A stretch of 64,000 nt of DNA from Trichomonas vaginalis G3. Lineage: Eukaryota; Parabasalia; Trichomonadida; Trichomonadidae. Each line of letters opens with the position of its first letter. Positions within the stretch are counted from its first letter, which is position 1. The translations under genes and the position numbers were made by a program. Location: assembly GCF_026262505.1 (NCBI RefSeq), contig NC_067203.1, positions 3,038,001 through 3,102,000 of the forward strand, read 5' to 3'. Positions 2,260-55,490 of the stretch are shown one piece after another. Under the pieces are notes generated by a model that was given only the letters and a program-made list of their open reading frames with translations, was not told the DNA's origin and ran no database searches.

Positions 2260-2349
2260 AATATATTTTAGGTGAAGAGGTGAGATTTCACCTGTTTTCT
2301 CCTGTTTTTTCACCCTCACCGCTTAGCGGCTCAGACCCTTTGGGTCTCG
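2260..2349. repeat. Intergenic hairpin module (GGTGA type) plus two short hairpins
   Basis: After the integrase stop, AGGTGAAGAGGTGAGA can pair with the following TTTCACCTGTTTTCTCC and TTTTTTCACCC stretch. Two small perfect stems follow: CCGCTTAGCGG and AGACCCTTTGGGTCT. The module recurs at 3379-3440, 14921-14970 and (inverted) 55221-55280. Likely roles are a terminator or replication/packaging hairpin; nothing in the sequence decides. Confidence 0.6.
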
Positions 2350-2376
2350 TGAATTTTCATGAATTTCCTTAAGATA

Positions 2377-2430
2377 GAAAAAATAAAGTTAGTTTTATTT
2401 TTATTTATTTTTTTATTTTGTATAAAAGAT
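2377..2430 (+). promoter_or_regulatory. Early-type Maverick leader
   Basis: A T-rich tract ending TTTTTTTATTTTGTATAAAA directly before ATG 2431. The same arrangement, with TTTTTATTTTGTATGTAA and then about ten bases, precedes ATG 3537 and ATG 4237; a related T-rich tract precedes the polymerase ATG at 5781. No host initiator TCAYTTTT is present. Shared position relative to four starts supports a promoter role. Confidence 0.6.
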
Positions 2431-3359
2431 ATGATTTCAACAATTGGCACAACAACAATTCAAACAACTACAGCACCAAACTCGCTAGTCATGAATCCTA
2501 CGTCAATGTTGGTAGAGATGAAAAGCTTTATTCCTTCTTCATATACTTTTGAGACAGAAATACAAAGAATTAAGCAAGAACTTTTAACAAGTAATTTAGA
2601 CTGTAGTGTGAAAGATGAAACAAATGAACAGTATCTTTATGACATGCAGGACATTATTGACCATTTACCCAAATTGCCTGAAATTCAGCAGCAAAAACTA
2701 ACTATTCATGAATTCGATGAAATAGAAGTGAAACCAACTGACTCAGTAGAAATAAAGAAGTTCATACGTAAAGTAAACTATGAGTTTCTAGGATATCATT
2801 GCAACCATAAAGTTATGGACAAAGATTGCGACATGGTATATAAGAACATCTCTGACATATATAAATCTGGGGAGTTTAAGACATACGACAACTTTGTTTC
2901 ATTAGTTGCTGAATGTGTATGGCAGATAAGAGATAAAGATAAAAGATGTAAAATATGGAATGGACAAATAAAACCAACAACTTTTGAGTTAAAGAAAACC
3001 ATTGACGCCTTAGTTGTTCTAGCAGGTCAAATTTCAATGTATAACGCAAAAATGAATCCGCAATGTTCAAAATGTAAAGCAGCAATGAGGAAATATAACT
3101 ACTCCGTCAAAGAGATAGAACGTATGAGAAAGGACTATGCTGACTTAAAGAAAGAAGTAGAAAACCAGCAGAAGATAAAATGGACATGTTAGCATTTCTG
3201 AACAAAAACTATCCAACAGCTGACGATTTCCTTCTATCTGACGTCAAGAAGAAGTATAAAGAAACTTTCGGCATTGTTAAAACTTTTGACATACTGACAG
3301 AAGAAATAGAAGCTACGAAATTGTTAGAATTTCAAATATACATCGTACAATTCATGTAA
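2431..3359 (+). pseudogene. Unrecognised Maverick accessory gene, frameshifted near its 3' end
   Basis: An open frame exists from 2359, but its first 24 codons are a translation of the T-rich leader, giving a false signal peptide; ATG 2431 fits the promoter spacing seen at the neighbouring genes. The 253-residue frame to 3192 is rich in charged residues and has a CxxC (PQCSKCKA) followed by a helical tail. A second 59-codon frame (3180-3359, beginning MDMLAFLNKNYPTADDF) overlaps it by 13 nt and looks like its continuation after a one-base shift; its last residues resemble the end of the KilA-N gene downstream. I recognise no family. It lies between integrase and the KilA-N pseudogenes. Confidence 0.5.
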
Positions 3360-3378
3360 AACGCTTATAAAATAAACT

Positions 3379-3440
3379 GGGGTGAAAAATTAGGTGAGAA
3401 AACAGGTGAAATCTCACCTCTTCACCTAAAATATATTTTT
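3379..3440. repeat. Intergenic hairpin module (GGTGA type)
   Basis: AGGTGAGAAAACAGGTGA is followed by its complement ATCTCACCTCTTCACCT and then TAAAATATATTTTT. It is the same architecture as at 2260, in the opposite orientation. Confidence 0.65.
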
Positions 3441-3479
3441 ATTGAATTCAACAACAAAAATAATGAATTTCATTAGTTA

Positions 3480-3536
3480 GAAAAATAACGCTAATTTTTT
3501 CTAAGAAAAATTTTTATTTTGTATGTAAGAACAGAA
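3480..3536 (+). promoter_or_regulatory. Early-type Maverick leader
   Basis: GCTAATTTTTTCTAAGAAAA, then TTTTTATTTTGTATGTAAGA, precedes ATG 3537. The GCTAATTTTTTC block also occurs before the polymerase start (about 5740). Confidence 0.6.
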
Positions 3537-4150
3537 ATGACAAACATTGAGTTTGAAACAGTTAGAAAGATAGACAATGACACCAAAGTGGTTAGAATAG
3601 GTGATTTAAACGTAAGATACTCAAAGAAATACAACAAATATTCTTTGTCAGACATTATATCTCCATCTGGAAAGAAAACAAACGACTGGGTTAGAAATGC
3701 TTCAACTCAGAAAATTTTGACAAGAAATCCTGAGCTTATGATATTCAGTAGCATTTCATGGAACAAGAGCATATCTTATAGACAAAAGTCTTATACCAAT
3801 AGTTTTGTTATGGTTAGACCCAGTTGTTGGATATAACTTCATAACATATGGTTCGTTCGACTCAGAACGTTGCAGTGAAGGCTTACTTTATATCGTTCAG
3901 AAACCGAAGGACTTCAACACAAAAAGATATAAGATAGGAAGGACATATAATATAACTCAAAGATATGACAGTACAGTCAAGTAGAGTCAAGGTTGTGTTT
4001 GTTAATGATATGAGAGCTGCTGAAACAGAACTGCTTGAAGTTTTTGAGAAAATGTATGGTGCTCCCATGAAAGGTAAAGAAAACGTTTGAAGTAGATGAG
4101 ATAGATAAAGCTATAAAATTATTGACGAAGTTGCTGAAAAATACATGTAA
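3537..4150 (+). pseudogene. KilA-N / T5orf172 (GIY-YIG-like) DNA-binding protein, decayed
   Basis: The N-terminal half (3537-3770) resembles a KilA-N DNA-binding domain (NVRYSKKYNKYSLSDIISPS, then DWVRNAST). After frameshifts, the region 3880-4080 encodes a T5orf172/MUG113-type segment (EGLLYIVQKPKDF, YKIGRTYNITQRYDS, VFVNDMRAAETELLE), a GIY-YIG-related module often fused to KilA-N in large DNA viruses. At least two shifts and an in-frame TAG break the frame. Start 3537 is chosen because the conserved leader ends there; an earlier ATG at 3519 lies inside that leader. In viruses such proteins are thought to act in regulation or DNA transactions. Confidence 0.65.
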
Positions 4151-4179
4151 AGCGCTTTATTTTTGGTCTTTTGTGAAAG

Positions 4180-4236
4180 TCAGAAAATAAAGTTAGTTTT
4201 ATTTATTATTTTTTTATTTTGTATGTAAAGACAGAT
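4180..4236 (+). promoter_or_regulatory. Early-type Maverick leader
   Basis: AAAATAAAGTTAGTTTTATT followed by TTTTTTTATTTTGTATGTAA and ATG 4237. It is nearly identical to the tracts before 2431 and 3537. Confidence 0.6.
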
Positions 4237-5066
4237 ATGTCAACAACAGAGAACACAACAACTGCTATCGTTCATGAAGCCATAAATGAAGAATATGAAT
4301 ACATACAGTATAACAAACAATTGAGACTCATTCGTTTCGGTCAAAGGACGATATGTACCAGATGCAAAGTATAATGAATGCTCTTCGTTCTACAAAGCAA
4401 GCATATCATTGGTTGTGAAAACCAACAGACAAGAGAACTTTAGAAGAATTTCCTCATATGATTGCTTCCCTCGGAAAACCGAGAGAAGAGATTCCGTACG
4501 AAAAATCGCAAGAATTTGGCACCTGGTTTGAAAGGTTATTATGTTCATAGACTTTTAGTAAATGCTGTAGCAATGTGGGCTTCACCTCGTTATGCTTGTT
4601 ATATTTTCATGATGTTAGATGAACTATATAAAGCAGAACGTGGAGAGATGGAAAAGAAACTTCAAGCAAAAGATGAAGTCATTGAATCCAAAGACAAAAG
4701 CATACAGAAAAGAATACCACGTTCAGTACCAAAAGAAAGGAAAAAAGCTATAAGATATTGATTTACGCTGAAGAGATGGAGAAAGAAGAAGATAAAGATA
4801 TGGTTATGTTGCATTTAGTCAGAAGAAACAACAAGAGCTTTTATGACCTTGCTAAGATTTACAAATCTGACAGAAATTGGTTCTATCGTGAAAACTTACC
4901 GATTTCAATGACACCGAATGAGCAAATAAAGGAAATTGTCAAAAATACTCTTCCTCAAACACACTATGACATCAAAGGTTGCACAATACTTACATTCAAA
5001 GAAGACTTAACATTACTGAAGGAAAAAATAACAGAATATTTCGATAACTTCAAAGAGGAAGAATGA
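4237..5066 (+). pseudogene. KilA-N / DUF3627-type protein, decayed
   Basis: The KilA-N core is clear in the middle (GLKGYYVHRLLVNAVAMW, then ASPRYACYIFMMLDELY). A short coiled segment (KKLQAKDEVIESKDKS) and a C-terminal region of DUF3627 type (4758-5066) follow. The 5' part (4237-4460) is broken by several shifts, and the 3' part shifts frame at 4758, where the apparent second start is only TTG. A 49-codon fragment of the same gene, with its 5' frame intact, is at 25907-26056. It is convergent with the gene at 5217-5690. Confidence 0.65.
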
Positions 5067-5106
5067 AGTTGTGATAACATTGACGATAACATTTATTTTT
5101 GCATTC

Positions 5107-5197
5107 AACCCATGCTGTTGTCAAAATGTCATGTTGTCATCATTTTTAAAAGAAGTTAATTAACCTGGTGACATGGTGACGTAGTGGCACCATCAGT
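5107..5197. repeat. Intergenic hairpin module (GTGAC/GTCA type)
   Basis: TGTCATGTTGTCATC upstream pairs with GGTGACATGGTGAC downstream, across AAGAAGTTAATTAACC. It sits between convergent genes, as a bidirectional terminator would. A near copy occurs at 25585-25662 in Maverick B. Confidence 0.6.
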
Positions 5198-5216
5198 TAT
5201 TCAAAAATAAATTTGC

Positions 5217-5690
5217 TTAAATGACGTCAGGGTCAATTTCTTCAACCATTTCACTTCCTTCGTCAATGTCAATAGAAGCTTCTTCAACCTTTGGTAAGAA
5301 TTTCTGTATAACATCTTTGTTCGTTATTGTCTTCAGAGATGAAGGATAATATTTCACAGATGTTTCATCCTTCTTATATTCTTTCTGTTCGGAAAGATTC
5401 ATAGCAATACTGAAGAAGTCAATGTTAGAGTTCTTTATGACAGTATAATGAGTATCTTTGACATTCATGAAGAAACCCTTTTGTTTCAAAACTACTGCTA
5501 ACTCTTGTGAAGTATAACGTTTGCGGTCAATGACGATAGCTAATGGTCTGACATACTGACCGAACTTAGATTCTTTCAAAAACTTCTTGTTAAAGATAAC
5601 ATTAACATTTGAAGCATTATTGAACTCATTCTTGATGGCATTAGCGAGAGCATTGTATGAAAAGAACTTGCAATCTTGCATGTGTTTCAT
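5217..5690 (-). CDS. Unrecognised 157-aa Maverick protein divergent from POLB
   Basis: An uninterrupted minus-strand frame between the KilA-N pseudogene and the polymerase, sharing a roughly 90-bp divergent intergenic region with POLB. Residues ~60-80 (RYTSQELAVVLKQKGF) could form a small helix-turn-helix; the C-terminus is acidic (EEASIDIDEGSEMVEEIDPD). I recognise no family. Position next to POLB makes a replication or regulatory role conceivable, for example as a terminal-protein candidate, but no sequence signature supports that. Confidence 0.6.
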   Translation of the reverse strand: MKHMQDCKFFSYNALANAIKNEFNNASNVNVIFNKKFLKESKFGQYVRPLAIVIDRKRYTSQELAVVLKQKGFFMNVKDTHYTVIKNSNIDFFSIAMNLSEQKEYKKDETSVKYYPSSLKTITNKDVIQKFLPKVEEASIDIDEGSEMVEEIDPDVI

Positions 5691-5780
5691 TAAAATAAAA
5701 AGTTCGAAATATTTTAAAACTAGCCTTAAAAAATCTAAGCTAATTTTTTCAAAAAATATTTTTTTTATTTCCTACTAAAG

Positions 5781-8700
5781 ATGTATCGGAAGTTGTCTAA
5801 GTTAGAACACTCGGAAATAAAACAACTTCTTACAGAAGCTAACATAGATGTTGCAAAACATTACGCGACAAACAAAAAAAGCACTCGCTGACATCCTCAA
5901 TGACTACAATGGTGAAATAACTTATGATAGAATTCATGAGTTCATAAATGCAAGAGCATTTCCTTTAAATGACGTTGCTATTGACTTATATCATAGACGT
6001 TCAGTACCTCATGAAGTAAGAAGAGAAATGTTTGACATAACAAATGCGAACGTTGGTCATACTCGTAAAGCTCTTTCGCATGATGTTCGTCAAGAGAAGT
6101 TTGACATAACAAATGCAAACGTTGGTGAAACACGAAAGAGAGACGACACACTGAAACAACAGAGAAGATAGATGTTTAAAAGTGCTATAGAACAAGTTCG
6201 CAAAGCTAATAATGTCATTCGTTCCATTGACGACAAACCAAAAGAAGGTGAGAGATGGTTAAAGAAAGATGAAGAGAATAGGAAGAGAAATGTGAAGTCA
6301 GGCAATAGACTCATTGACTTTAACATCGAAGCTTTAGATGAACCAAACAGAGACTACTTACACAAACATTTCGGTAAGGTTTTCATGAGACTCTTAGAGA
6401 AGATTAAAATAAACTCCCAACAAAGATGGATGGTATGTTATAAACTTGGTGGAAAGTATGAATGTTCTACGTTAAACCTCAATAATATTGGAACATTACT
6501 ACATCAGCTCTTGAAGGAGAACTTTATATCAGAGATAGAAGCAAATGCCGCGGGTATTGTTGAAATGCACTATGACTTCTTCTTGACAAACATAAAGAAT
6601 CTTACTGAAATAAAGATGTATGATTTAACAGAATATGAAGGCTTAACGATGTCAGATGTTAAGAAAGGAAAGCCACAGAAGCGACCATATAGAGATGAAA
6701 GCACACTGACAGAAAGACAGAAAAGATTATTGAACAGACTTAAACAAACAGGAGATAAACAAGATATAGATGACTTCTGGAATGAAATCCTTGGTGAAAA
6801 GAAGTTTTATAAGAAGAGAAGCGGTTAGTTCTGGAAGTATCTTTGCACATTACCTATAAATCTTGAACGCTACCAAATCTTCAATGAACTGAACAAAAGA
6901 ACTGCAGCACTTATGACAGAAGACAATTGTTTCGTTTATGCTTGCATTCAGGCTGGAGTAAATGAAGAAACTATTGACCACATGAGAGAAGTCATTCGTG
7001 TTAGAGACTTTCCTCAAAGTAAAGTACAAGAAATTTCTGACGCAACAGATATAGCATTTAATGTTACCATTGGTTATTTCAATGACTCAAGACATAATGA
7101 AATAAAGAGATACATACCAAAAGAATGTAAAACTGTTCGAACTATTGACTTACTTCTTGTTGAAGACCACTACATGCTAAATGAAAGACTTCCAATGACA
7201 ACATATTTCATTCGCAACTATATAGAAATCTTGAAGGAGTGTAGTGGAATGAACATTGAGAAACAGATGAAGATTTATACAAAGAGAGAAGATAAATATG
7301 TAGTTCGCATGGATAGAACTACACCGCTATGGGATGTTATGAAAACATTGTGGGAGTGCAAATATTTCGAACCTATTTCTTATGGAGAACTTTTCACATA
7401 TACGACTGACTTATATAAACAGAACCTTGCACCATTTAAAGATTTGACATATGCTCCAAAGTATTGTGTACAACTGAAGAAGAAAGCAGAGTCAAAAGAA
7501 GTAAATAAAGCTAAATGTAAGTTCATTCCTGAGCATGTTTTCTTTGCTGACTTTGAGTGTAGCACAGACGGCTTTCATAAAGCTTTTAACATCTGTTACG
7601 ACAGTGAAGATGGTTCAGTGAGTGAAAGCATTTGGGGTCAGAACTGTGCAACAGAATTTTTGGAACGACTTCCTGACAAGAGTTTAATATATTTCCATAA
7701 CCTCAGTTATGATATAAACTTCATCTTAAGACACATGACAGAAGTGAAAGGAACTCCCATCATTAAAGGTTCACGAACAATGCAAATAACTGGCTTATAT
7801 AAAGGAAGGGCAATTATTATAAAAGACTCTTACAGTGTTATAAATAAGAAGCTTAAACTATTTCCTGCTATGTTTAACTTACAAACAGGACCGAAAGAAG
7901 TATTTCCATATAACTACTACAGCAGTGTTTTGTTAGCAAATGACAACAGAACTGGTGTCATTTCTGAAGCATGTAAGTTTATCCGGGATGCAGATACATT
8001 TATGAAAAACATAGATTCCATCAAAGGTTGCAGAATAGATGAAAACCATTTCGACTTAGAAAAATATAGCACGTTTTACTGCAAACAAGATGTAAGAATT
8101 TTAAGAGAAGGTTTTGTTAAGTTCCGCAATGACATATTGAAAGAGTTTGATTTAAACGTTTATGACTACGTTAGTATTTGTTCTATTGCTAACAAATTAT
8201 TTGAGAACAGAGTATACTTCCCGAATGGAAATCTTTATGACCTCTCAAATAAACCAAGAGAATTTATTTCGAGATGCATTCAAGGTGGAAGATGTATGTT
8301 GTCAGATAACATGAAACAAAAGAGCGAAAAGAAACTCATTGCTGACTTCGACGCTGTTTCATTATATCCATCCGCTATAGCAAGACTTTATACTTTAGAA
8401 GGAATTCCAAAAGTATTGAAGGATGAGATGTTAAGTTCTGAATATTTGTTAAAGCATTTATTCGATGACGACCAAAAGGAACCCATTGGTGAAAAGTTTA
8501 TGTCTGGCTTCTTTGTTCTCATTAAGATAACAGAGATTGGAATACATAGACACTTTCCTTTAATAGTTTGTGTCCCTGAACTAAATCCAGAACTTAACGT
8601 TCCCAGAAGTTCAAACACTTGCTGTTTAATGTATGTTGACCATATAACATTACAAGACCTCATAAAATATCAAGGTGTCAAATGTGAAGTGTTGCAAGGA

Positions 8701-9605
8701 TACTATTACGATGGAAACAGAGATATTAGAATAAGAGATGAAGTAAAGAAGTTGTTTGAGTTAAGGTTAAAGTATAAGAAAGAAGGAAATCCTTTGCAAG
8801 AAAATATAAAGCTCATTCTGAACAGTATTTATGGCAAAACTATTCTATCTCCTATTGAGTCAAAAATAACCATAGTAAATGACAAAGATGCTATAAGATA
8901 TGCCATCAGAAACTACAACCATATAGTGAAGTTCGAAGGTTTGGATGGTTCAGATAAAACTATTTTCAAGCTAACGAAAAGCATTTGCAGACACTTTAAC
9001 TTCTGTCCACTTGTGTTAATATTCTATCTATGTCGAAGAGAATAATGTGTGAAGTATTCTGTACTGCTGAAGACTTAGGAATGGACATCTTTTATAGCGA
9101 TACGGACAGTATGCATCTCTACAATGAAGATATCCCTCGTTTAGCTGAAGAGTTTGAGAAACGTTATGGAAGAGTTCTCATTGGTAAAAACCTTGGTCAA
9201 TTTCATAGCGACTTTGCAGAAATCACAAAAGATAAACAAAGTTTAGCATACAAGTCAATATTTTGTGGAAAGAAGACCTACATAGACTTACTCACGAATG
9301 ATTTAAATGAAGTTGCATTTCACTGCAGAATGAAAGGCGTGAAGCAAGATGTTATTGCTTTAACCGCTAATGAAATGTTTCCTGACTCTGTTCAGTGTTT
9401 CTATGATGAAGATAAAGGTTTAATGGTTCCGCAAGGAACATATGACAAAGACTCTGAGTTCAGTTTAATGAAACTTTACAAAGCACTTTATGACGGTCAA
9501 GAGATTGGATTTGACTTATGTAAGTCATGTCAACCTTGCTTTGAAGAGAAGTTTAACTTCTCAATAACGACTAAAACAAGCTTTATTCGTAAGTTGAAGT
9601 TCTGA
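5781..9605 (+). pseudogene. POLB: Maverick protein-primed DNA polymerase B, multiply broken
   Basis: One long gene carrying two frameshifts and two in-frame TAG codons. Exonuclease motifs: DFEC at 7549, FHNLSYDINF at about 7690, YCKQDVRIL near 8080. Polymerase motifs: DFDAVSLYPSA at 8344, NSIYGK at 8821, YSDTDS near 9093, then KKTYID. Upstream (6913-7200), DNCFVYACIQAG and a later VEDHYML resemble the Cys and His motifs of an OTU-like domain reported at the N-terminus of some Maverick polymerases. Breaks are a shift at the A7 run near 5874, TAG at 6169 and 6826 (frame otherwise continuous) and a shift near 9003-9015 just before motif C. The N-terminal region contains FDITNANVG twice. Together about 1270 codons, a normal size. 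It would copy the element by protein-primed replication, but this copy cannot make an intact enzyme. Confidence 0.9.
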
Positions 9606-9775: not shown

Positions 9776-9798
9776 TAAAAATAAAGCTAGCGTAGATT

Positions 9799-10952: not shown

Positions 10953-10997
10953 TTGACTGCAGATAAAAAACAAAATTAAAACTTTAACCGATGTAAA

Positions 10998-11426: not shown

Positions 11427-11453
11427 ATAGATATTTTTATCTGAAGTAAATAC

Positions 11454-14920: not shown

Positions 14921-14970
14921 AGGGTGAAAAAACAGGTGAGATTTCACCACTTCACCTAAATTTATTTTTG
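14921..14970. repeat. Intergenic hairpin module (GGTGA type)
   Basis: AACAGGTGAGATTTCACCAC with a further CTTCACCT arm and a T-rich tail, between the two right-end genes. A copy in inverted orientation is in Maverick C (55221-55280). Confidence 0.6.
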
Positions 14971-24676: not shown

Positions 24677-24960
24677 AATGAAATGAAGGAAGAATGTGTA
24701 TATCTACCCCAAACATTATTTTAGTTAAAGTCCATCAAATATTTTTAGGATACTTTCACCAAATAATGTTTATATTAGATGAAACAGTAAAGTATTATAT
24801 CTATTAAATCGTCTATGATGTAAATTGTGTATAGAATGAAATGAAGGAAGAATGTGTATATCTAATGAAATCCTCCATGTTAGAAAACATGTTAGAAAAC
24901 ATGTTAGAAAACATGTTAGAAAAGGTGTTAGATCTAACATTCTAACATAAACATTATTTT
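24668..24960. repeat. Duplicated 40-bp segment and hairpin module (TGTTAGA type)
   Basis: GTATAGAATGAAATGAAGGA plus a further AGAATGTGTATATCTA occurs at 24670 and again at 24829. At 24877-24960, four ATGTTAGAAAAC-type units are followed by the complementary GATCTAACATTCTAACAT and a T-rich tail. Nothing coding. Confidence 0.7.
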
Positions 24961-24965
24961 TGGGT

Positions 24966-25580
24966 CATTTACACTCATTACGATGAAGAAGTCATGACAA
25001 AACATATACGTTTAGTTTCGATGAAATCATGACAAATCATTTACGATGAAGTCATGACAAAACATATACGATGAAATCATGACAAAACATATACGATGAA
25101 ATCATGACAAAACATATACGTTTAGTTTCGATGAAATCATGACAAAACATTTACGATGAAGTCATGACAAAACATATACGATGAAATCATGACAAAACAT
25201 TTACGATGAAGTCATGACAAAACATATACGATGAAATCATGACAAAACATATACGATGAAATCATGACAAAACATATACGAAGAAGTTTATACAAAGTGT
25301 TTACGTTTAGTTTCGATGAAGTCTTGACAAAGCATTTACGTTTAGTTTCGATGCAGTTTGACAAAGTGTTTACGACGAAGTCTTGACAAAGTCTTGACAA
25401 AGTGTTTATGTTTAGTTTCGATGAAGTCATGACAAAGTCATAACAAAACATTTACATTCATTACGATGAAGTTTTGACAAAGCATATACGAAGAAATCAT
25501 GACAAAGCATATACGATGAAGTCATGACAAAACATTTACGATGAAGTCATGACAAAGCATTAACGATGAAGTTTATTTCC
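24966..25580. repeat. Iteron-like array 1 (CATTTACGATGAAGTCATGACAAAA family)
   Basis: More than twenty copies of a ~27-bp unit, ACGATGAARTCATGACAAAA then CAT(A/T)T, some with an extra CGTTTAGTTTCG insert. It is too irregular to be a CRISPR (no conserved-repeat/unique-spacer alternation; the whole unit drifts). Adjacent to an SF3 helicase gene, it could be a replication origin. Confidence 0.85.
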
Positions 25581-25584: not shown

Positions 25585-25680
25585 CTGTTGTCTAAATGTC
25601 ATGTTGTCAGTAATTTTAAGAGAAGTTAATTAACCTGGTGACATGGTGACGTAGTGACACCTAAAACCATCTACCCTAAA
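25585..25680. repeat. Hairpin module (GTGAC type), copy of 5107-5197
   Basis: ATGTCATGTTGTCAG, AGAAGTTAATTAACC and GGTGACATGGTGACGTAG match the Maverick A module almost base for base, although the neighbouring genes differ. A CTACCCTAAACATTATTTTT tail follows. Confidence 0.65.
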
Positions 25681-25906
25681 CATTATTTTTGCTGAATTCA
25701 GCAACAAAATGAACGAGGTCAGGATGTATGCAAATACCTTTGAATTCATTCATAACGCCTTAGTAAGCTCATAAAATGTTTGTTTTGAGGTCGAGCCACT
25801 TTTGGCTTGACCGTATTCTTTCAACCAAAACTCAAGAATTTTCCTGCGTGAATTTTGTATAAAAAGCAACCGTCTGAATTCCGGCGATTGCTATATTCTT
25901 CACAAA
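25681..25906. other. Non-coding stretch with a GGTC-AGCC hairpin
   Basis: GGTCGAGCCACTTTTGGCTTGACC (25791-25814) folds into a 10-bp stem with one mismatch, followed by a T-rich run and the KilA-N start. No other signal is seen. Confidence 0.4.
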
Positions 25907-26056
25907 ATGCCTTATAATACTCTTCGTTCTACAAAGCAAGCATATCATTGGTTTGAAAACCAACAGACAAAAGAACTTTTAGAAGAATTTCCTCATATGA
26001 TTGCTTCCCTCGGAAAACCGAGAGAAGAGATTCCGTATGAAAATTCAAGAGGGTAG
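25907..26056 (+). pseudogene. KilA-N fragment (49 codons)
   Basis: PYNTLRSTKQAYHWFENQQT followed by ELLEEFPHMIASLGKPREE is nearly identical in DNA to 4378-4500 of Maverick A. It runs into the next hairpin module (26050-26110), whose TAG ends the frame. It is the N-terminal part of a KilA-N domain only; the rest is deleted. Confidence 0.65.
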
Positions 26057-26110
26057 AAAAGAGGGTAGAAATGAGGTTAGATCTACCCTTCTACCCTAAA
26101 ATATATTTTG
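26047..26110. repeat. Hairpin module (GGGTAGA type)
   Basis: Two AGGGTAGAA units, then GTTAGATCTACCCTTCTACC and TAAAATATATTTTGGG. It has the same architecture as the GGTGA modules with a different core word. Confidence 0.7.
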
Positions 26111-26112
26111 GG

Positions 26113-26500
26113 TCATTTACACTCATTACGATGAAGTCATGACAAAACATATACGTTCATTACGAAGAAGTCTTGACAAAGCATTTACGATGAAGTCATG
26201 ACAAAACATTTACGAAGAAGTTTTGACAAAACATATACGATGAAGTCATGACAAAACATATACGATGAAGTCATGACAAAGCATTTACGATGAAGTCATG
26301 ACAAAACATATACGTTTAAGTTCGACAAAGCATATACGATGAAGTCATGACAAAACATATACGATGAAGTCATGACAAAACATATACGAAGAAGTCATGA
26401 CAAAACATTTACGTTCATTACGATGAAGTTTTGACAAAGCATTTACGAAGAAGTTATGACAAAACATATACGAAGAAGTCATGACAAAACATTTACGTTA
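26113..26500. repeat. Iteron-like array 2
   Basis: About fourteen more units of the family at 24966-25580 (CGATGAAGTCATGACAAAAC then ATATA). Both arrays share the entry phrase GGGTCATTTACACTCATTAC after a hairpin module. Confidence 0.85.
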
Positions 26501-29902: not shown

Positions 29903-30540
29903 GGACATTTATTTTTGTCGTTAGTGTTGGAGTTTGTGTTTGTTGTTAGTGTTTGTCATTTGTGCTGAAGTTAGTACTTGATGTTAGTGTTGGAGTTTGT
30001 GTTTGTTGTTAGTGAGAGAATAAATTAAATCATGAACTTTGCCATGGTCTCTGTCCCTAGTAGTTTTCATTAAGTTCTGGAAATAATGAAAGTCATAAAC
30101 TTTGCCATGGTCTCTGTCCCTAGTAGTTTTCATTATCTCACAGAGTTAATGAAAGTCATACTTTCTATCAGATGAAGCATGCAGATGAACATAATGAAAG
30201 TTAGTGAGTTTGCCACGAGTTATGAATAAAATATTGGCATATTAGATGAGATAGCTGATGAAACAGATGAAGATAAATTAAATCTTGGACTTTGCCACAC
30301 TCTGTCCCTAGTTCCTCAAAATCCTTGACAACGTTGCTTAGAAATTTTGGTTCAAAACCTCATCTGATTTTAATCTGTTATGCTACCTGTTAAGTTTCGC
30401 GAGATTATAAATGTCATGGAGTTATATAAAAAGGAGGGACAGCTAGGGACACTGGAAGTACTTGTAAGGCTATCTGTTAAGATTGCATGAAATACTAAAA
30501 AGTCATGAAATTCATTATCGCTGTGCTAGCTTCACCTTAG
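29903..30540. repeat. Repeat-rich non-coding stretch before the right-end cassette
   Basis: TTGTTAGTGTTGGAGTTTGT units (29930-30010) are followed by two copies of ACTTTGCCATGGTCTCTGTC plus CCTAGTAGTTTTCATT (30036, 30096) and a weaker third (30290). No coding frame is seen. Confidence 0.7.
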
Positions 30541-30546
30541 AGTAAA

Positions 30547-30789
30547 ATGACGACTAAAGTCACTGAAGCAATGAAACAAAAGTTTTTGGTAGAATACATT
30601 AAATCAGGAACTATTCCAGAAGGTTTTTACGTTCATACTATGAAGGATGGTAGAGTTCAGTTTAGAAAGATAAAGCAACCATTAGATAGAGAAGGAATTT
30701 TGAGAAAGATTAAACTTCATGAGGACAACATTGCTAAACTTAAGAAGAAGTTAGAAGAGTTGGAGAAAGCAGACGACAGTGAGGAATAA
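30547..30789 (+). CDS. Conserved ~80-aa Maverick right-end protein (copy of 14669)
   Basis: Identical in most residues to the Maverick A copy (GFYVHTMKDGRVQFRKIKQP; coiled-coil HEDNIAKLKKKLEELEK), but ends KADDSEE instead of KGREL. The last bases GACGACAGTGAGGAATAA are the same as the end of the Maverick A capsid gene (DDSEE), which suggests recombination between virion genes. Function unknown. Confidence 0.65.
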   Translation: MTTKVTEAMKQKFLVEYIKSGTIPEGFYVHTMKDGRVQFRKIKQPLDREGILRKIKLHEDNIAKLKKKLEELEKADDSEE

Positions 30790-30836
30790 AATATTTCATT
30801 AGTTTTATTTTTACTGAAAATTTTTATTTGGATGTA

Positions 30837-31163
30837 ATGACGAAAACTATTGAGATAACAAACTACAACGGTCATGAGTTCAGGAATTTGTTCTTCGTTC
30901 CTCGTGAAAATACATTCTATCAGATACGAGGGAGAAAGGGTAAAGTTAGTTTGAGCGTTTACGACAACAAACATAATGGGAGATATATAAAAGCAATAGA
31001 TACAAACGGTAAGCGTGTTTCATTAGCTTTGTCAAAACTTACATACATTTATTTTGACAGTGATTTTGACTCTGACGATTGGAGCGACAGCAGCGATACT
31101 GAAGAATATGAGCTGTTATGTGAAGCACAGCAATGGGAGGAGTTGCAATACTTTTGTAAATGA
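30837..31163 (+). CDS. Conserved 108-aa Maverick right-end protein (copy of 15045)
   Basis: Start at GGATGTAATG; an in-frame ATG at 30828 lies inside the leader. The N-terminal part matches the Maverick A copy closely (FRNLFFVPRENTFYQIRGR). The acidic middle differs (DSDFDSDDWSDSSDTEEYE), and the end WEELQYFCK is conserved. Reads toward the terminus at 31390. Confidence 0.65.
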   Translation: MTKTIEITNYNGHEFRNLFFVPRENTFYQIRGRKGKVSLSVYDNKHNGRYIKAIDTNGKRVSLALSKLTYIYFDSDFDSDDWSDSSDTEEYELLCEAQQWEELQYFCK

Positions 31164-31390
31164 GAACATTAGTGGGAACGTTAGTGAGAACGTTTATTTT
31201 TTCATTAGTGAAGTCGTTAGCGAAGTCGTTAGTGAGGTGAAGTGGTTGGCGGCTTTGTAAATATTTAAGGTTAAGTTAGTGTTGTCGTTTGTGTTGTAAA
31301 ATATACGTTAACGGTTTTGTAAAGTGTCAAACCGTTATGTTGGGTAAGGTGGAACGCAGTGCCGCCGTACCCAAGATATGTATACTAACT
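31164..31390. repeat. Right terminal repeat of Maverick B
   Basis: Same order of motifs as 15366-15568, ending GTATACTAACT at 31390; the flank then reads CAAGTTTACAAC, entirely different from Maverick A's flank. Confidence 0.85.
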
Positions 31391-32157
31391 CAAGTTTACA
31401 ACTAAGCTTGGCTTCTCACCATATTGTTGACATAAAACTTTATTATTATTTTGTACCAACTCAACAATGTGAGTTTATTCAATTCAATGATGTTCTTCCT
31501 GATTTCATTCATATGCAAGTATTTTATCTGAAAGGTGGTTTATATAATTTTATTTTCCACAATGAGGTACGTGGGAAAAATGAAATTATTGAATTCAACT
31601 GTCTCATTCAAGAACCGGCTCTTCAAAAGTTTTGTGATTTCATCACTATTTTATTCGTGGTCGAACCTAATTTACTATCAAAATTATCAATAACCGAAAA
31701 CTATCAAAAGCAAAATATTGCACAGAAGGGAATTTTAGCTGAGATTGAAGTACCTGAAAAAATTAGAATCATGGATGATGTTGACAATCGTGCCTTCTAT
31801 AAGCTTATTGATGATGAATTCAAGCGATGTGATTTTATGGGTCGTTTACTCACTGATGATGGACAATTTTATTTAGATGAAGATGGTAGACCAACAAATT
31901 ACATAGAATGGCGTGAAGAAAATCATGAATATATAAATCCGAAAACACTCCCCTTGCCAGAAACAAATATACCAACACGTGAAGCTGGAATGGAATTTCG
32001 ACAAAACATGATTGATGCATTTAATGCCGAAGTTGATCAGAATCTACATACTGATGAAGACATTCAAGCATGGAATGAAAAACTAGAGACTTCAACAAGG
32101 AATGAAGCATTTGAAAGTTGGGCAGGAAGACGATACGAACCAGAAAAAATAGTATAA
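31391..32157 (+). pseudogene. Unrecognised protein, 5' end removed by Maverick B
   Basis: The frame runs from inside the terminal repeat (31378) through host sequence to TAA 32155-32157, so the first codons are Maverick DNA and the true N-terminus is missing. About 255 residues remain: a beta-rich start (IKLYYYFVPTQQCEFIQFND), then an acidic helical C-terminus with LLTDDGQFYLDEDGRPTNYI. Style and composition recall element X genes, so this may be its continuation beyond Maverick B. No family recognised. Confidence 0.5.
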
Positions 32158-33083: not shown

Positions 33084-33650
33084 TTTGTTATTTATATATT
33101 TATATATATATGTATATTTATATATGTATATATTTATATATGTATATATTTATATATGTATATATTTATATATGTATATATTTATATATGTATATATTTA
33201 TATATGTATATATTTATATATGTATATATTTATATATGTATATATTTATATATGTATATATTTATATATGTATATATTTATATATGTATATATTTATATA
33301 TGTATATATTTATATATGTATATATTTATATATGTATATATTTATATATGTATATATTTATATATGTATATATTTATATATGTATATATTTATATATGTA
33401 TATATTTATATATGTATATATTTATATATGTATATATTTATATATGTATATATTTATATATGTATATATTTATATATGTATATATTTATATATGTATATA
33501 TTTATATATGTATATATTTATATATGTATATATTTATATATGTATATATTTATATATGTATATATTTATATATGTATATATGTATATATTTATATATGTA
33601 TAATATTTATATATGTATATATTTATATATGTATATATTTATTATGTAAC
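33084..33650. repeat. 18-bp microsatellite, TATATATTTATATATGTA units
   Basis: About thirty near-perfect copies. All three frames on one strand are open and give IYMYIFIYV-type ORFs, which are artefacts. Confidence 0.9.
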
Positions 33651-33682
33651 TTATTTATGCTGTGTTGAGTATTGTTGAATTG

Positions 33683-46426: not shown

Positions 46427-46443
46427 TTACTACGTGTAAAAAT

Positions 46444-46806: not shown

Positions 46807-46829
46807 TTAATATTAGATAAAAATATCTC

Positions 46830-48845: not shown

Positions 48846-48875
48846 TTAACACAAATGAAGGTAAAAATATATGAA

Positions 48876-49408: not shown

Positions 49409-49415
49409 CGAAAAA

Positions 49416-49678
49416 GGAGATTTGACAGAATGTCAAATCTCCTCAAAAAGTGACAGTTTACATGGCAAACAATTGCGAGCAATTTTTAGCCATTTTGGCT
49501 GAGAACTAGGGTCTGCGAGGTACATAGATAGAATCAGTACCTCGCAGACTCTAGTTCTCTATATGGCGCCGAGAAATTTTCGTGAAATGCGACGACATTT
49601 CACCAAAATTTTCTCGACACCATAGGATGAATTGGAGGGTGTGAGATACTATTACATATAATAGTACTCACCCCCTCC
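49416..49678. repeat. Four consecutive hairpins at the transposon's left end
   Basis: (1) 49416-49442: GGAGATTTGACA, loop GAA, TGTCAAATCTCC. (2) 49501-49559: 23-bp stem GAGAACTAGGGTCTGCGAGG with one mismatch. (3) 49562-49624: stem of about 26 bp, TATGGCGCCGAGAAA against TTTTCTCGACACCATA. (4) 49634-49678: GGAGGGTGTGAG..CTATTA against TAATAG..CTCACCCCCTCC. AATTGCGAGCAATT at 49471 is a fifth small palindrome. Confidence 0.85.
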
Positions 49679-50384
49679 AAAACCTCGAAAATCTCAAAAT
49701 TTCCTGCAATTATCATCAACTTTGCATAGCACAATCGGCCAAAAATTCATTCAATTGTCCTTCTTCTCAATATTTCTTAACTCTTTCGATTTCTTTCAAA
49801 ATATCTTTCAATAATCTTTCAATGATAAATATTATACAAAAACGATTAGTATGAAACTTTTTTGCATTTTAAAAATATTTTATATTTCTGTTTTTATTTC
49901 AATTTTTATATTTTTATTTTCCTTTTTTTAGATGAAACTTATTTGTTTACCAATATTCCTTATTTTATAAAATTTTTCAATTGAATACTACAATAATTTT
50001 ATCTCTCCTTTATTAAATTTTCGATTTTTATGTTAATTCTAATTCTTTGCACTATTTCTTGTCTAAATCTTCTAAAATTTTTATTTTAATTTAATTTGAC
50101 ACATAATCATCCTTTTAATTTTCGATTCAAATCCTTATCCTCTTCATTATTTTTCAATAATTTTTTATCGTAATTTGTAAAATTCGTTCTTTTATAGCTG
50201 TTTAAATAATCCAAAACCATGATATTTATTATTGTTAATTATTCCTAATCATGTTTTTTCCATTAATTTTAATTTTTTATTTTCTGAACCATTTAAATTA
50301 ATTTTGTTAAGAATATTTTTTCAATATAGACTTCTGAAATAATTAAATTATTCTCAAATTCTCACAAATTATTTCATTTCAAAT
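49679..50384. other. AT-rich leader of the transposase gene
   Basis: T-rich, no frames. TCATTTCAAATTTGTTTAAA before ATG 50385 is a plausible initiator. Confidence 0.5.
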
Positions 50385-52790
50385 TTGTTTAAAATGAATT
50401 TGTACACCTTAGTTGATTCAGCTTGGCTTGAAACAGCTCTAGCACAGATTCAAAGGCGCACACCGTTAGCCATTGTTCTCACAAATGTTCCATTAGTCAA
50501 CAACACTATTCGTTCATCAATTAACAAGATAACATTTTACAAAGCTCTCTTATGTAATAGACTAATTACTATTGAAGAGTACTTACATCATACATACAAA
50601 CTTCAAGAGTTTACTACTTTCTACATTAAATATAATAATCGACTCTACGAGTGTTCATCCATTTTGAAACACAGAGATGACACTCTCCTTACCGATTATT
50701 TGATATTACAAAGTTCAAACGACTCTCGTATACAGGAAGAACCCTCATCAGCCAGCACTCCTCTACAACGCCAGCTTTCATCAGCCAGCACTACCAACTC
50801 TGTTCCACAGCAACAGCTCTCAACAGCCAACGCTCCTCTACAAAGCCCACTTTCTGCCAACACCCAGACACAACGCCAGCTCTCTGCCAACGCTCCTCTT
50901 CAACGCCAGCTTTCATTAGCCAGCAGTACCAACACTCCCACACAGCCACAACTCTCTGCCAGCACTCCCCCACAACTCCAGCTCTCGGCCAACTCTCTTC
51001 CACAGCAACAACTCTCTGCCAACACCCAGACACAACGCCAGCTCTCTGCCAACTCTCTTCCACAGCAACAACTCTCTGCCAACACCCAGACACAACGCCA
51101 GCTCTCTGCCAACTCTCTTCCACAGCAACAACTCTCTGCCAACACCCAGACACAACGCCAGCTCTCTGCCAACTCTCTTCCACAGCAACAACTCTCTGCC
51201 AACACCCAGACACAACGCCAGCTCTCTGCCAACTCTCTTCCACAGCAACAACTCTCTGCCAACACCCAGACACAACGCCAGCTCTCTGCCAACTCTCTTC
51301 CACAGCAACAACTCTCTGCCAATACTCCTCTTCAACGCCAGCTCTCTGCCAATACTCCTCTCCAACGCCGGCTCTCTGCCAATACTCCTCTCCAACGCCA
51401 GCTCTCTGCCAACACTCTTCCACAGCAACAACTCTCTGCCAACACTCCTCTTCCACAGCAACAACTCTCTGCCAACACCCCTCTTCAGCGCCAGCTATCT
51501 GCCAACACTTCGGCACAGCAACAACTCTCTGCCAACACCTTGGCACAGCAACAGCTCTCTGCCAATACTCAGCCTCAGCCTCACCCATCTGTGTCTATTC
51601 CCCTTAAGCGCGGGAGATCCAAAGTTAATGTACCAAAAGATCTTAAGGTAACTATTAGAAACCTAATTGAGCAGCATGGCCATCTTGGAATAATCTCCGC
51701 CTATAACCAAATAAATAAAGATATCGAATATGCCAAATCTCATTTTGAGGCATTTTTGGACATGAAGACGGGTATTGTTCCACAGCCAACGCCTACCCAA
51801 GCATGGTTCTCCGCTATTGAACGTTTTAAGCCCCTGAATCAAATTTCTTCCACAATTCCTTCCGGACTTATGATTGAAGAGTCTCCATTATCATTTCCAT
51901 CTGAGCTGAGGAACATTAAATATCTTACAAACCCTCTTCCACATCCCCCCTCAAGACATATGGTAGAAAGAGCTTTTAGAGAGCTAGGCTTGGCACGTCC
52001 AAGGGGACCCTATCGGCCAAAAGGAAAGACAAGATACTTAGCTGCCTTTCCTAACCAAATATGGCACGTTGATATCCACTTTCTTGGCAAAAAGAGAAGT
52101 CAGATTCTTTATGCTGTGATTGATGACTGCACAAGGCTCATCATAGAATGGCAGCATCTTTCGTCAAAACATGCTAGCCAAACAGTGAAAGTAATTAAGA
52201 GAGCAATAGCCCGTTATGGACCACCACATACAATTTGGTCCGATAATGGCGGCGAGAATAAAGGCGAGTTCCTAAAGGCTATGAGGGTTCGGGGGATCAA
52301 TAATGTATATATTGTCCCCCATTGCCCATACCAAAATGGGAAAATCGAGCGCTTGTGGCCTAACATAGAGAGCAGAGAGTTGTCATGGGCAAAGATTCAA
52401 CAATGAGTTGAGTACTATAATGCTAAACCTCATCTAGCATTACCAACTCATTATGTGAATGGAAAACAAATTCACTATAGCCCATCTGAAATGTGGAAGA
52501 AACTTCCAATTTGGAAGAGGGGAATACCGGCAAAATGGATTGTGGATGGAGTCTCTCAAGATTTTCTTCCAGGTTCACTTATGGCCAATGAGATGCCAGA
52601 GCTCCAAGGAATCGAAGAAGATGAATGGGAAAAAGAAGGCGAGGAAGTTGAAGAAGAAGAAAATAAGGCGAATCCGGTTGAAATAGAAGAAGATAGTAAT
52701 GAAGAAGAAGAATACGAAGTAAATTATGAAGAAGAATATCAAGAAGATTATGAAGACCCTTATGAAGAAGATTATGATGATTCATTTTAA
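50385..52790 (+). pseudogene. rve/integrase-core transposase with Gln-rich repeat, one in-frame TGA
   Basis: 802 codons in one frame, interrupted only by TGA at 52404-52406, in a position (IQQ-stop-VEYYNAK) where Trp is usual in such enzymes. N-terminal ~115 residues are folded. Residues ~120-400 are a QLSANTQTQRQLSANSLPQQ repeat. A helical DNA-binding-type region (VTIRNLIEQHGHLGIISAYN) follows. Catalytic Asp563 (HVDIHF), Asp620 (SDNGGENKG) and Glu655 (GKIERLW) form a D,D34E triad. The C-terminus is a very acidic tail (EEEYEVNYEEEYQEDYED). If TGA is not read through, the protein ends after Glu655 but lacks the rest. Confidence 0.8.
50740..51590. repeat. In-frame tandem repeat, 60-bp unit
   Basis: Five exact 60-bp copies from 50990 to 51300 (CACAGCAACAACTCTCTGCC onward), flanked by shorter 30-36-bp variants. 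Reverse-strand frames here (AESWRCVWVL) are shadows. Confidence 0.9.
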
Positions 52791-52871
52791 TATTACGAAT
52801 AAAATGTCACTTTTTCTATTTTTGACACGTAAAGTTGTCATTTTTCTGTCAAACTGTTTTTATCGTTTTCG

Positions 52872-53836
52872 TATATAACAATAACACCTTGGTTAATTGC
52901 AATGAAAACCGCATTTGTTAAGTATTGGAATCTAATTGTGACATTATAGCCGGCGAATCCATCATCAAATTGATCCTTGGGGAGAGATAAGCCAAGAAGC
53001 TTACGAACGACAATAGTCGGAACAAAATATGATAAGTTTGTAATAAGCTGAGAAAAGCCAACTTTGAGTGCTGGGAATGTATGAGGAGAGAATTTCTTAA
53101 ATAAATCACCTAACTGGGGCTTAACGGCAAATGCGCCTTTATAATACCACCCAAGAAGCATAAATGCAGGGAATAATTCGGAAAGAACAGTTGAAAGTGC
53201 TGCACCACGTACTCCAAGCTTGCCTAAAAGTAATAAAGCGGGATCAAATAATAAACCATTCAAAACAAATGATACAAGCTCCATGATTGCGAATATATGT
53301 GTCCTACCTTCGCCCTGAAAGAAGCCACCACAACATAAGAATAAACATGTAGCAATGGATCCGTATGAAAGTAGAGAAATATACTCGAAGCCAAATTCAA
53401 CAAGGCCTTCATCAGCACCAAACCATCTTGCTGCATGTTTGACTGTTGGAATAAGAATTGCTGGAACAATTAAAGAACAAATTATCGAACAGCGAATTAA
53501 ATCACTAAAAACTTGTCTGGTTTCCGATTCTTTTCTCTGGCCAAATAATTGCGAAGTTTTCGTTGATGCTGCTGTGCACATAAAGAATCCAAATGAACGG
53601 CCGATGTTATCAAAGCAATTATAAGTAGAAACGGCAGCCATACCACGATCTCCGCATGCTTTTGCAACCCAGATGGTGTCAATAATTGAGTATAAGGCGC
53701 CAACAACTTGAGAAACCATTGGACCCATGGATAAAAACAAAATTGTCTTGAGCGGTGGGCGGCCTGCTAATCTGTAGTGTTCCAGTTGCAAGTCTTTATC
53801 TTGTTTTTGACCTAATAAAGGTGTAGGATTTACCAT
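52872..53836 (-). pseudogene. MATE transporter, 5' part
   Basis: N-terminal ~320 codons of a MATE-family cation/drug antiporter: MVNPTPLLGQKQDKDLQLEH, LFLSMGPMVSQVVGALYSII, GFFQGEGRTHIFAIMELVSF. About eight hydrophobic helices remain before the transposon at 52871; the frame then runs 10 codons into it. The MITE at 53853-54370 begins 17 bp upstream of the ATG, so the original promoter may be displaced. TCAACAAATG at the start is a possible short initiator. Confidence 0.85.
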
Positions 53837-53852
53837 TTGTTGAATTAATTAA

Positions 53853-54370
53853 GGGTGGCTTCCGACCAAATTGTCACTTTTTACCCCAAGTGAGAAAATT
53901 TCGTAATTTATAACCAAGTTTTTTAAAATCTATATTTAATAAAGATTCTATTTTTCTTATTAAATTTCAAAAATGAGGGGGTTCGGAATCGTCCACAAAT
54001 TGCCGAAAGGGTTTTTGCCAGTTTTGAATCCGCTTATTTTTATCGACCAAAATTATAATAAATATAATTTTCGATAAGTATTCTACCCAAATGATTCTTC
54101 AAAAAAATATTTTTTGGATTTTATTCCGTAAAAAACGTTACATAAAACACCTAGAAAATTTCGAATTTTCCCTAAAAAATTCAGTGCAGGTCGATTGAAG
54201 AGATTTTTCAAAAATAATCATATCAGTAGATAGGGTATAATATAGAGGAGCTTTATGAATAACTCAAAATCCGGGAAACTCAATATTCAACGAGAAAAAC
54301 GCTTAACGAATCTCACTTTTGGTGTAAACATCACAAAAAATTGAGAGAGCTTTCTGGTCGGAAGCCTCCC
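53853..54370. mobile_element. 518-bp TTAA MITE in the MATE promoter
   Basis: GGGTGGCTTCCGACCA at the left is matched by TGGTCGGAAGCCTCCC at the right (one mismatch), with TTAA on each side (53849-53852, 54371-54374). The interior is AT-rich. The GGG termini and TTAA target match the elements at 36522 and 43073. Confidence 0.85.
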
Positions 54371-54614
54371 TTAATCTTATCAAAAATCGTTCAGCAATTC
54401 AATAATGTATTAATGTATATATTGTTACACAACTATCCCATCGTCAATAATAGATTTTCCTGTGATCCCAAATTGAAAGGATAAATGGATTAATTTCTAT
54501 GTTTTGCGGTTTCAAATTTCAATATTTAATCGTCGTTAAATTTTTTAACCCAATTTCAAAAAAATTATTATTGATTTAGCACCAGTATGTATAGGTTATA
54601 TTTGCATTCTTAAC

Positions 54615-55310
54615 AGTTAGTATACAAGTCATGGGTACGGAGGCACTGCGTTCCACTTTACCCAATACTTGTGAATTTAACACTTTACAAAACCGCTAAC
54701 GTATATTTTACAACACAAACACAAACACTAACTTAACCTTAAATATTTACAAAACCGCCAACCACTTCACTTCACTAACGAACTCACTAATGTAAAAAAT
54801 AAACGTTCTCACTATCGTTCTCACTAACGACTTCACTAATGTTCTCATAAATTTTCCTCAATATCTTCATCATCAGTGTTAACCCTATTGTAGTCATACT
54901 TGAAGCCATAAACTTTCTCTAACTTCTTAACGTACAATTTACATAACTTACCTTCGTCATCGTATGGTTTAATGATATAACTATTTCTATCTTTATACAC
55001 AGTCAATGAAAAGTCAACTGGTCTCGGATGTATTTGAAAGAACATGTTATGCTCAGGAAGGAAGAATAAATGTTTAAATGTATGTTTGTTATACTGTGGA
55101 ATTCGAATGAGTTGCTTTTGTTCTGTCATTTACATCCAAATAAAAATTTTCAGTAAAAATAAAATAAACTTAAAAATTAATGATATCACCACCCTCACAC
55201 GTATGAAAACATAGCACAAAAATAAATTTAGGTGAAGAGGTGAAATCTCACCTCTTTTCTCACCTCTTTTCTCACCCTGTTGAATTCATTGCTTTATAAC
55301 TCTCTTCCTT
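54615..55310 (-). mobile_element. Maverick C terminus (truncated)
   Basis: AGTTAGTATAC at 54615 opens a sequence that is the inverted equivalent of 14890-15568, including the conserved right-end gene (54845-55129) and the GGTGA hairpin module. Similarity to Maverick A stops at about 55310, inside the equivalent of the 78-aa gene (its last codons are replaced by a basic KKKPRKRV-type end). The rest of the element is missing. Confidence 0.8.
54845..55129 (-). CDS. Right-end Maverick protein, divergent relative of 15045
   Basis: 94 aa. HTFKHLFFLPEHNMFFQIHP and FSLTVYKDRNSYIIKPYDDE align with NLFFVPRENTFYQIRGR and VSLSVYDYKHNGK of the Maverick A/B proteins, with about 40% agreement by eye. The end is acidic. 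Leader TTTTTATTTGGATGTAAATG. Its survival in a truncated copy may be chance. Confidence 0.6.
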   Translation of the reverse strand: MTEQKQLIRIPQYNKHTFKHLFFLPEHNMFFQIHPRPVDFSLTVYKDRNSYIIKPYDDEGKLCKLYVKKLEKVYGFKYDYNRVNTDDEDIEENL

Positions 55311-55490
55311 GGTTTCTTTTTAGTTGCTTTCTTCACGTCGAGATATAAAAATTGCTCACATTTGCTCACATTTTGGCACTTTTTTGTACGTTTGTCAAAA
55401 AAATTGTGAGGAAGATCTCACAAAAATAGTCAAAATGTGAGCAAATTTTGAGAAGTGCTCACATTTTGACATACGATTATTTTCATACGT
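55221..55490. repeat. Two hairpin modules (GGTGA type and TGTGAG type)
   Basis: 55221-55280 is the inverted GGTGA module. 55346-55490 has GCTCACATTT repeats around a perfect TTGTGAGGAAGATCTCACAA (55404-55423), the same plan with another core word. Confidence 0.6.

Follow-up and report, generated by a model that had tools for sequence, protein, structure and literature searches.

Palindromic word arrays that bracket DUF3839 genes in Trichomonas vaginalis Mavericks co-vary with nine C-terminal codons of the gene

Transposons of the En/Spm-type CACTA group carry subterminal repeats to which the element's own protein binds, and the ends of IS200/IS605 elements and the attC sites of integrons place hairpins near the edges of an element or cassette without target-site duplication. 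In geminiviruses, the gene for Rep adjoins repeated words of five to six bases to which Rep binds, and these words differ between close relatives; in the virus studied, the identity of these iterons was reportedly not essential for replication (PMC12548392). For the hairpins described below and their link to the protein family DUF3839, we found no published account in the open-access literature (preprints aside), and a text search returned two papers that mention DUF3839, neither of them on Trichomonas by title.

A sequence-only reading of the window (the whole stretch of 64,000 nucleotides analysed here) had proposed nine intergenic sites as one family of co-varying hairpins spread across Mavericks. 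The Maverick (Polinton) setting is borne out by a retroviral-type integrase and a DNA polymerase B, assigned to one element by their proximity. Six of the nine sites (2257, 3381, 14922, 24878, 26050 and 55218) belong to the family; the site at 25585 is half a hairpin, that at 5107 falls outside the family, and that at 55346 was rejected as an unrelated inverted repeat. The features are as follows.

1092..2177, + strand: Maverick integrase, left of the cassette (PF00665, E 1.3e-10)
2257..2315, - strand: GGTGA-type hairpin flanking DUF3839 at the 5' end, tail leftward and thus outward; one word copy mutated
2431..3192, + strand: DUF3839 (PF12943) gene copy
3381..3440, + strand: GGTGA-type hairpin flanking DUF3839 at the 3' end, tail rightward and thus outward
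5107..5200, no strand assigned: GTGAC 8-mer repeat without tail, non-member, same repeat family as 25585..25694
6913..9045, + strand: Maverick DNA polymerase B (PF03175, E 1.2e-38)
14922..14969, + strand: GGTGA-type hairpin within the terminal region of a Maverick; its flank context is shared by 1204 genome copies in all
24878..24961, + strand: TGTTAGA-type hairpin with five tandem words
25585..25694, + strand: half hairpin, the GTGAC 8-mer repeat family with one 3' word copy and a tail
26050..26109, + strand: GGGTAGA/GGTTAGA-type hairpin, inner arm partly uncompensated (GGTTAGA against TCTACCC)
55218..55278, - strand: Maverick-end GGTGA-type hairpin like 14922..14969, in a second Maverick copy

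In the shared layout, a word is repeated in tandem every 12 nt, followed by two complementary copies at 8-nt spacing and by a TAAAATATATTTTT-like tail. The GTGAC sites (5107 and 25585) consist of 8-mers containing GTGAC, with about 30 nt between the arms. Structurally, the family hairpins are short DNA palindromes set in arrays, and they are real and abundant. Tails of the GGTGA type, searched genome-wide with up to 2 mismatches, number 5,155 (2611 + 2544) against 21 (11 + 10) in the reversed control, and TAGA-type arms number 4,467 (2242 + 2225) against none (0 + 0). A scan for the layout that specifies no word returned 16 matches, of which the window contributed 5, whereas 10 dinucleotide shuffles yielded 1-3 apiece; it covered the window and 20 evenly spaced 10-kb stretches (264,000 bases) unselected for hairpins, and it skips the copy at 2257-2315 because one word is mutated there. 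Over 341,692 bases, including loci fetched for their hairpins, the same scan gave 164 matches against 5, 3 and 4 in controls. The hairpins fit no known RNA family, with no match in the window at the Rfam gathering score, and a search of IMG/VR with one GGTGA-type pattern returned no relatives.

As the sequence-only reading had noticed, both arms of a hairpin change together; in fact nearly always all word copies do (156 of 182 hairpins). Of the 181 family hairpins from the fetched loci, 161 have matching inner five-base arms (74 GGTGA, 53 TGTTA, 26 GGTTA and 8 GGGTA), a tally that began from 219 tails, 33 of them without a hairpin, and 186 parsed hairpins, from which 5 non-family ones were set aside. 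Among the 20 with non-matching arms, 14 are chimeric, 5 carry a point change and 1 a deletion; uncompensated arms are mostly recombinants between two word types. A second listing of about 100 hairpins, counted by eye, held 14 with mismatched arms. The interpretation first placed on this co-variation, selection on the stem and not on the sequence, does not stand: pairing frequently fails at the sixth position (GGTGAA against CTCACC in 37 of 186 parsed hairpins), no G-U intermediates of the five-base core occur among the parsed hairpins, and the words recur as whole blocks. The stem is not the main thing conserved, and the words are kept as sequence. Two observations had been named in advance as telling against that interpretation, namely arms that differ without compensation, which do occur in about one hairpin in ten (20/181), and stems explained by local tandem duplication alone. 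Duplication does build the arrays, but it is insufficient on its own because arrays about 1 kb apart, flanking an unlinked gene body, agree with each other.

The gene between the first two arrays belongs to DUF3839 (Pfam E 9.9e-146, 484 bits against a cut-off of 22), and its frame is broken near the C-terminus, where tblastn shifts to another frame after about position 3162. The genome holds 3365 candidate DUF3839 places, and all 150 that were scored exceeded the cut-off. A homologue search found 282 proteins; the 120 listed are all named T. vaginalis, and 110 of the 111 among them that show the C-terminal end belong to one of three types, up to single changes. No relatives were found in IMG/VR. 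No other Pfam domain, and hence no transposase domain, exceeded the cut-off in the four proteins scanned; the top hit in PHROGs (P0001, E 0.0012) is a family without an assigned function, and hits in PDB were weak, at E 0.31 or higher. AlphaFold gave a poor model, with a mean pLDDT of 41.7 and values of about 26-38 over the C-terminal 50 residues, and a winged-helix fold is at most weakly suggested by it.

Hairpins bracket this gene with their tails pointing away from it. After five weak in-gene matches (3 mismatches) were dropped, 42 DUF3839 loci gave 138 outward tails, none inward and none inside the gene; without L007, which overlaps L006 and was removed from the counts, 41 loci gave 133. 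Copies fetched by DUF3839 place (L041-L072) had hairpins in 32 of 32 cases, and on both sides in 29, with the qualification that the tail search had already listed a hairpin near L041 and one near L051. The word is mostly identical on both sides. The arrays are tandem duplications, some of which include the 3' end of the gene (e.g. C1:4286210, 4286344, 4286478). Beside the hairpin at 24878..24961 we looked for DUF3839 and found none.

Alignments of the window's cassette with 20 other loci start at 2253-2257 in 7, at 2248 in one and further inside in 12. Directly after the tail begin some ten kinds of sequence (grouped by eye), unevenly diverse, with forms of xxTGAATTC making up a large share. 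Both edges could be read in 37 of the 50 copies examined, and none of these 37 has a target-site duplication; the edge was set at the outermost hairpin of the sequence fetched and may differ from the true edge. We found no clean empty site; one locus (L009) keeps the left neighbour of L001 and L003 without DUF3839, and its junction is not clean, and the window's third Maverick terminal region lacks the hairpin but has different surroundings. Two features of a DDE-type DNA transposon were looked for and not found, target-site duplication in these copies and a transposase domain in the four proteins scanned.

Each hairpin had been suggested as possibly specific to its own Maverick lineage. The word follows the DUF3839 gene instead, and the window alone has three word types. 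Each of the three C-terminal types goes with its own word: NIHxTIH with GGTGA, RIHNVYH with GGTTAGA/GGGTAGA, and NHRNIYH with TGTTAGA. The C-terminal type agrees with the 5' word in 44 of 48 copies (43/47 without L007; 39/43 after copies within 2% DNA difference were dropped) and with the 3' word in 46 of 47 (45/46 without L007). Information on the 5' word is 0.43 at the 5' end of the gene, falls to 0.03-0.08 mid gene and rises again to 0.46 at the 3' end, so that the link is not plain linkage. Within the last 21 codons, codons 8-16 carry 0.5-1.12 bits (of 1.51) and the other twelve at most 0.24 (47 loci). The word thus co-varies with a nine-codon block and not with the gene body. A tree of the gene body shows 12 changes of C-terminal type and 17 of the 5' word. 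Of 6 supported independent pairs for type a, 5.7 on average were concordant and none opposite (median p 0.03); types b and c gave 2.6 of 3 and 3.0 of 4, with 0.2 opposite in c, and have too few pairs. Genome-wide, type a with any TAAA downstream numbers 793, and type c with its matched word 344; these two totals carry no test by themselves.

We consider it probable, from these sequence comparisons, that the DUF3839 protein binds DNA, with its own palindromes as the sites it recognises, and that the gene and its arrays form a cassette shuffled among Mavericks. The nine C-terminal residues would read the five- to seven-base word; the arrays on both sides would be the targets, bound as duplex or as extruded hairpin; and the cassette would be exchanged with the T-run of the tail as its outer edge. 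The palindromes at Maverick ends may be further targets of the same protein. The joint change of word and C-terminus looks like natural lock-and-key DNA recognition, present in many copies in one genome. A bolder version, to which we give somewhat less than even weight, is a self-bracketing Polinton cassette of switchable specificity, encoding a protein family of its own. New specificities would arise in it through joint swaps of block and arrays, with free recombination in the remainder of the gene, and the cassette would move without target-site duplication.

The association could also arise with no recognition at all, if the inverted arrays were kept alike by tandem duplication and by gene conversion between them, and the block merely accompanied the adjacent 3' array. 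The origin of the arrays in duplications, some carrying the 3' end of the gene, suits this account, as do the chimeric hairpins (14/181) and the four exceptions to the 5' agreement (L005, L032, L034 and L047), all of which match the adjacent 3' word wholly or in part, and not the 5' word. Codons between block and 3' hairpin, moreover, vary too little to exclude linkage, which is tested weakly there. Just upstream of the block, however, the variable codons carry little association (at most 0.33 bits over 47 codons, mostly under 0.2); some type a and b copies have an identical stretch between block and word; and the block differs mainly by amino-acid changes whereas neighbouring codons vary mostly silently. 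We regard this account as improbable. It is unlikely, though less so, that word binding is real and the arrays are operators or replication iterons serving the Maverick and not the ends of a mobile cassette. Geminivirus Rep and its iterons pair in a similar way (PMC12548392), and many of the 1204 Maverick-end hairpin copies stand in -/+ pairs about 20 kb apart; against this, one Maverick terminal region of the window, the third (30.5-31.4 kb), lacks the hairpin, and the TGTTAGA word is absent from the roughly 93 of the 1204 copies inspected.

A role at the RNA level, with the hairpin marking 3' ends or polyadenylation sites as in Mimivirus, seems to us more doubtful still. It would draw on the position of the 3' array, which starts some 10 nt or less from the stop codon of DUF3839 wherever the sequence was inspected, and on RNA folds that beat shuffles at all six member sites (z -1.8 to -4.4; the hairpin at 3381..3440 folds at -18.0 kcal/mol, z -3.3). 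Mimivirus is described as polyadenylating at palindromes unconserved in sequence (PMC4402537). The 5' arrays, however, lie upstream of the gene with their tails on the opposite strand and not downstream of genes on the coding strand, which makes the terminator role once suggested for these hairpins unlikely for them. The words are conserved beyond the needs of a stem, two or three word copies stand opposite two complements, and the tie to nine protein residues would be left unexplained.

Recognition of the words by DUF3839, which we prefer, would provide a first functional handle on this family, and the three protein types set against three DNA words would form a natural code that is directly testable in vitro. 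It would also help to explain the richness of palindrome arrays in the intergenic DNA of Mavericks in this genome, and the exchange of gene cassettes among thousands of Polinton copies.

Like En/Spm-type CACTA elements, the cassette repeats one short motif many times at each end, with the gene in between; unlike them, it shows target-site duplications in 0 of 37 copies, no transposase domain was found in it, and its putative specificity differs within one family. With IS200/IS605 ends and attC sites it shares hairpins near its edges and the lack of target-site duplication, but each end has several hairpins and no known recombinase domain was found in DUF3839. The Mimivirus polyadenylation hairpins (PMC4402537) likewise lie between the genes of a virus-like element and are palindromes whose sequence varies, whereas here there are three conserved word types, an outward bracket and a tie to a protein block. 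As in the geminiviruses, short repeated words adjoin the gene of a binding protein, here a putative one. In DUF3839, word and C-terminal type co-vary at the level of sequence (44/48). No relation of DUF3839 to Rep was detected in Pfam, PHROGs or PDB, and the DUF3839 words differ in that they flank the gene on either side as inverted palindromic arrays, and do so across thousands of copies of a double-stranded DNA element.

The intergenic hairpin family that the sequence-only reading had placed across the Mavericks (represented in the window by integrase and DNA polymerase B genes) is real, with matches far above shuffled or control counts both in sampled sequence that includes the window and genome-wide. 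Its members share a grammar: words every 12 nt (as a rule two or three copies; five at 24878), a short centre, two complementary words 8 nt apart, and then a tail, typically TAAAATATATTTTT. In the most regular hairpins the centre is a perfect palindrome (e.g., AGGTGAGATCTCACCT, AGGTTAGATCTAACCT, ATGTTAGATCTAACAT), and the words differ by single steps (AGGTGAGA, AGGTTAGA, AGGGTAGA, ATGTTAGA). A word-free scan for this grammar, run on the window plus 20 stretches taken at even intervals, gave 16 matches vs. 1-3 per shuffle (10 shuffles); with loci fetched for hairpins included, it gave 164 vs. 5, 3 and 4 in controls. Three hairpin patterns, searched across 180.85 Mb in 86 contigs, yielded 5,155, 4,467 and 5,930 matches against 21, 0 and 0 in the control.

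Hairpins flank the DUF3839 gene of the window (2431-3192, + strand), with their tails directed away from it:

2257-2315, hairpin 5' of DUF3839, tail to the left
3381-3440, hairpin 3' of DUF3839, tail to the right

Across 42 DUF3839 loci, 20 of them chosen for hairpins, 138 hairpins pointed outward and none inward once five weak in-gene matches (3 mismatches) had been removed; stretches L006 and L007 overlap, and without L007 the outward count is 133 in 41 loci. Both flanks carried hairpins in 38 of the 42. Copies fetched by gene place had at least one hairpin in 32/32 cases and both flanks in 29/32, a sample including two stretches (L041, L051) for which a nearby hairpin was already listed by the earlier pattern search. 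In the one-sided copies, the second side was unrecognised (L046, L061) or outside the fetched stretch (L051). Arrays were all of one word class in 45 of 53 loci. Judged by match coordinates, some brackets, such as C1:2081015/2081149, are too narrow for DUF3839.

Within hairpins, a single word class (GGTTAGA and GGGTAGA pooled) was kept throughout in 156/182. The earlier proposal that the arms change together held for the inner five bases of 161/181 hairpins, tallied from the locus table; by eye, the inner arms were unmatched in 14 of approximately 100 genome-pattern matches listed. The uncompensated remainder are mostly chimeras between word classes, as expected from recombination within a palindrome. 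The corollary of that proposal, selection on the stem and not the sequence, did not stand. Base six of the arm frequently lacks a partner, and no G-U intermediates appeared in the five-base core among parsed locus hairpins; what is conserved is therefore the word rather than the longest stem.

Some sites had been misassigned to the family. Those at 5107 and 25585 are GTGAC 8-mer repeats whose complementary arms lie far apart, a third family (5107-5200, 25585-25670, and approximately 4935 in fetched stretch L013); one copy adjoins a gene (5217-5690) with a weak, under-cut-off DUF4108 match, and the two are perhaps a parallel gene-palindrome pair. The site at 55346 is an unrelated strong inverted repeat (55345-55490; perfect 15 bp arms with TGCTCACATTTTGAC). 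Tandem G+C-rich palindromes form a second family (L013:5000-5350; window 25850-25905); by eye, their arms vary and mostly do so in step, while the AAAAGC...GGTATATTCTTCAC context around them is fixed. We also observed GATGAAGTCATGACAAAACATTTAC-like 25-mer tandem repeats (24960-25560, 26105-26500) after the hairpins at 24933 and 26082, a tandem repeat of 3.7 identical 121 bp copies (58833-59281), and a long array of A+T 16-mers (33086-33658).

The C-terminal residues of DUF3839 fall into three types, NIHxTIH (a), RIHNVYH (b) and NHRNIYH (c), which up to single changes cover 110 of the 111 proteins showing this end among 120 database proteins listed. Type agreed with the nearest 5' word in 44/48 copies (43/47 without L007) and with the nearest 3' word in 46/47 (45/46). 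The gene body is mosaic: it says little about the 5' word at mid-gene (0.03-0.08 bits), and the value climbs back to 0.46 in the final twelfth. When the last 61 codons were scored singly in 47 loci, the signal lay in codons 8-16 of the final 21 (0.5-1.12 bits out of 1.51); no other codon exceeded 0.33, and most were below 0.2. From this block to the 3' hairpin information is low; variation there is also small, so linkage is excluded weakly, and the stretch is identical in some type a and type b copies. On the gene-body tree, which is a rough control because no single tree describes a mosaic gene, there were 12 changes of C-terminal type and 17 of the 5' word. The word followed type a in 5.7 of six supported independent pairs on average, with 0 opposite (median p 0.03); types b and c offered too few pairs (in c, 0.2 on average opposite). 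Within the RIHNVYH type, in a small number of copies, RIS leans to GGGTAGA and RVS to GGTTAGA.

We propose that the DUF3839 C-terminus would bind the word as its DNA recognition element, the protein probably sitting on the palindrome as a dimer. The predicted structure hints at a helical C-terminus and, after it, two strands, as a winged helix could have, but at a pLDDT of approximately 26-38 it is no more than a hint. Reading the gene and its arrays as a cassette depends on taking the tail as the edge. Immediately beyond it start some ten kinds of sequence, xxTGAATTC forms being a large share; when the window copy was aligned to 20 other loci, the match started at 2253-2257 for 7, at 2248 for 1 and further inside for 12. 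Neighbouring genes vary among copies, and target-site duplications were found in 0/37.

The palindrome also occupies a fixed place in the Maverick terminal region, with 1,204 genome matches having that flank, many forming -/+ pairs approximately 20 kb apart by eye. In the approximately 93 copies examined the word was mostly GGTGA, sometimes GGTTAGA-class or chimeric, and never TGTTAGA. The genes flanking the hairpin place differ among copies, and of three terminal regions in the window the third (30537-31392) is without a hairpin. The Maverick-end palindrome may be another site for the DUF3839 protein to bind, or it may have been left behind by an earlier cassette.

As for known systems, the 5' arrays of DUF3839 do not obey the Mimivirus hairpin rule; the 3' arrays may have a second role in transcript ends. 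DUF3839 and its palindromes would work much like Rep proteins with iterons, or like transposon subterminal sites, but no test made here placed them in either class.
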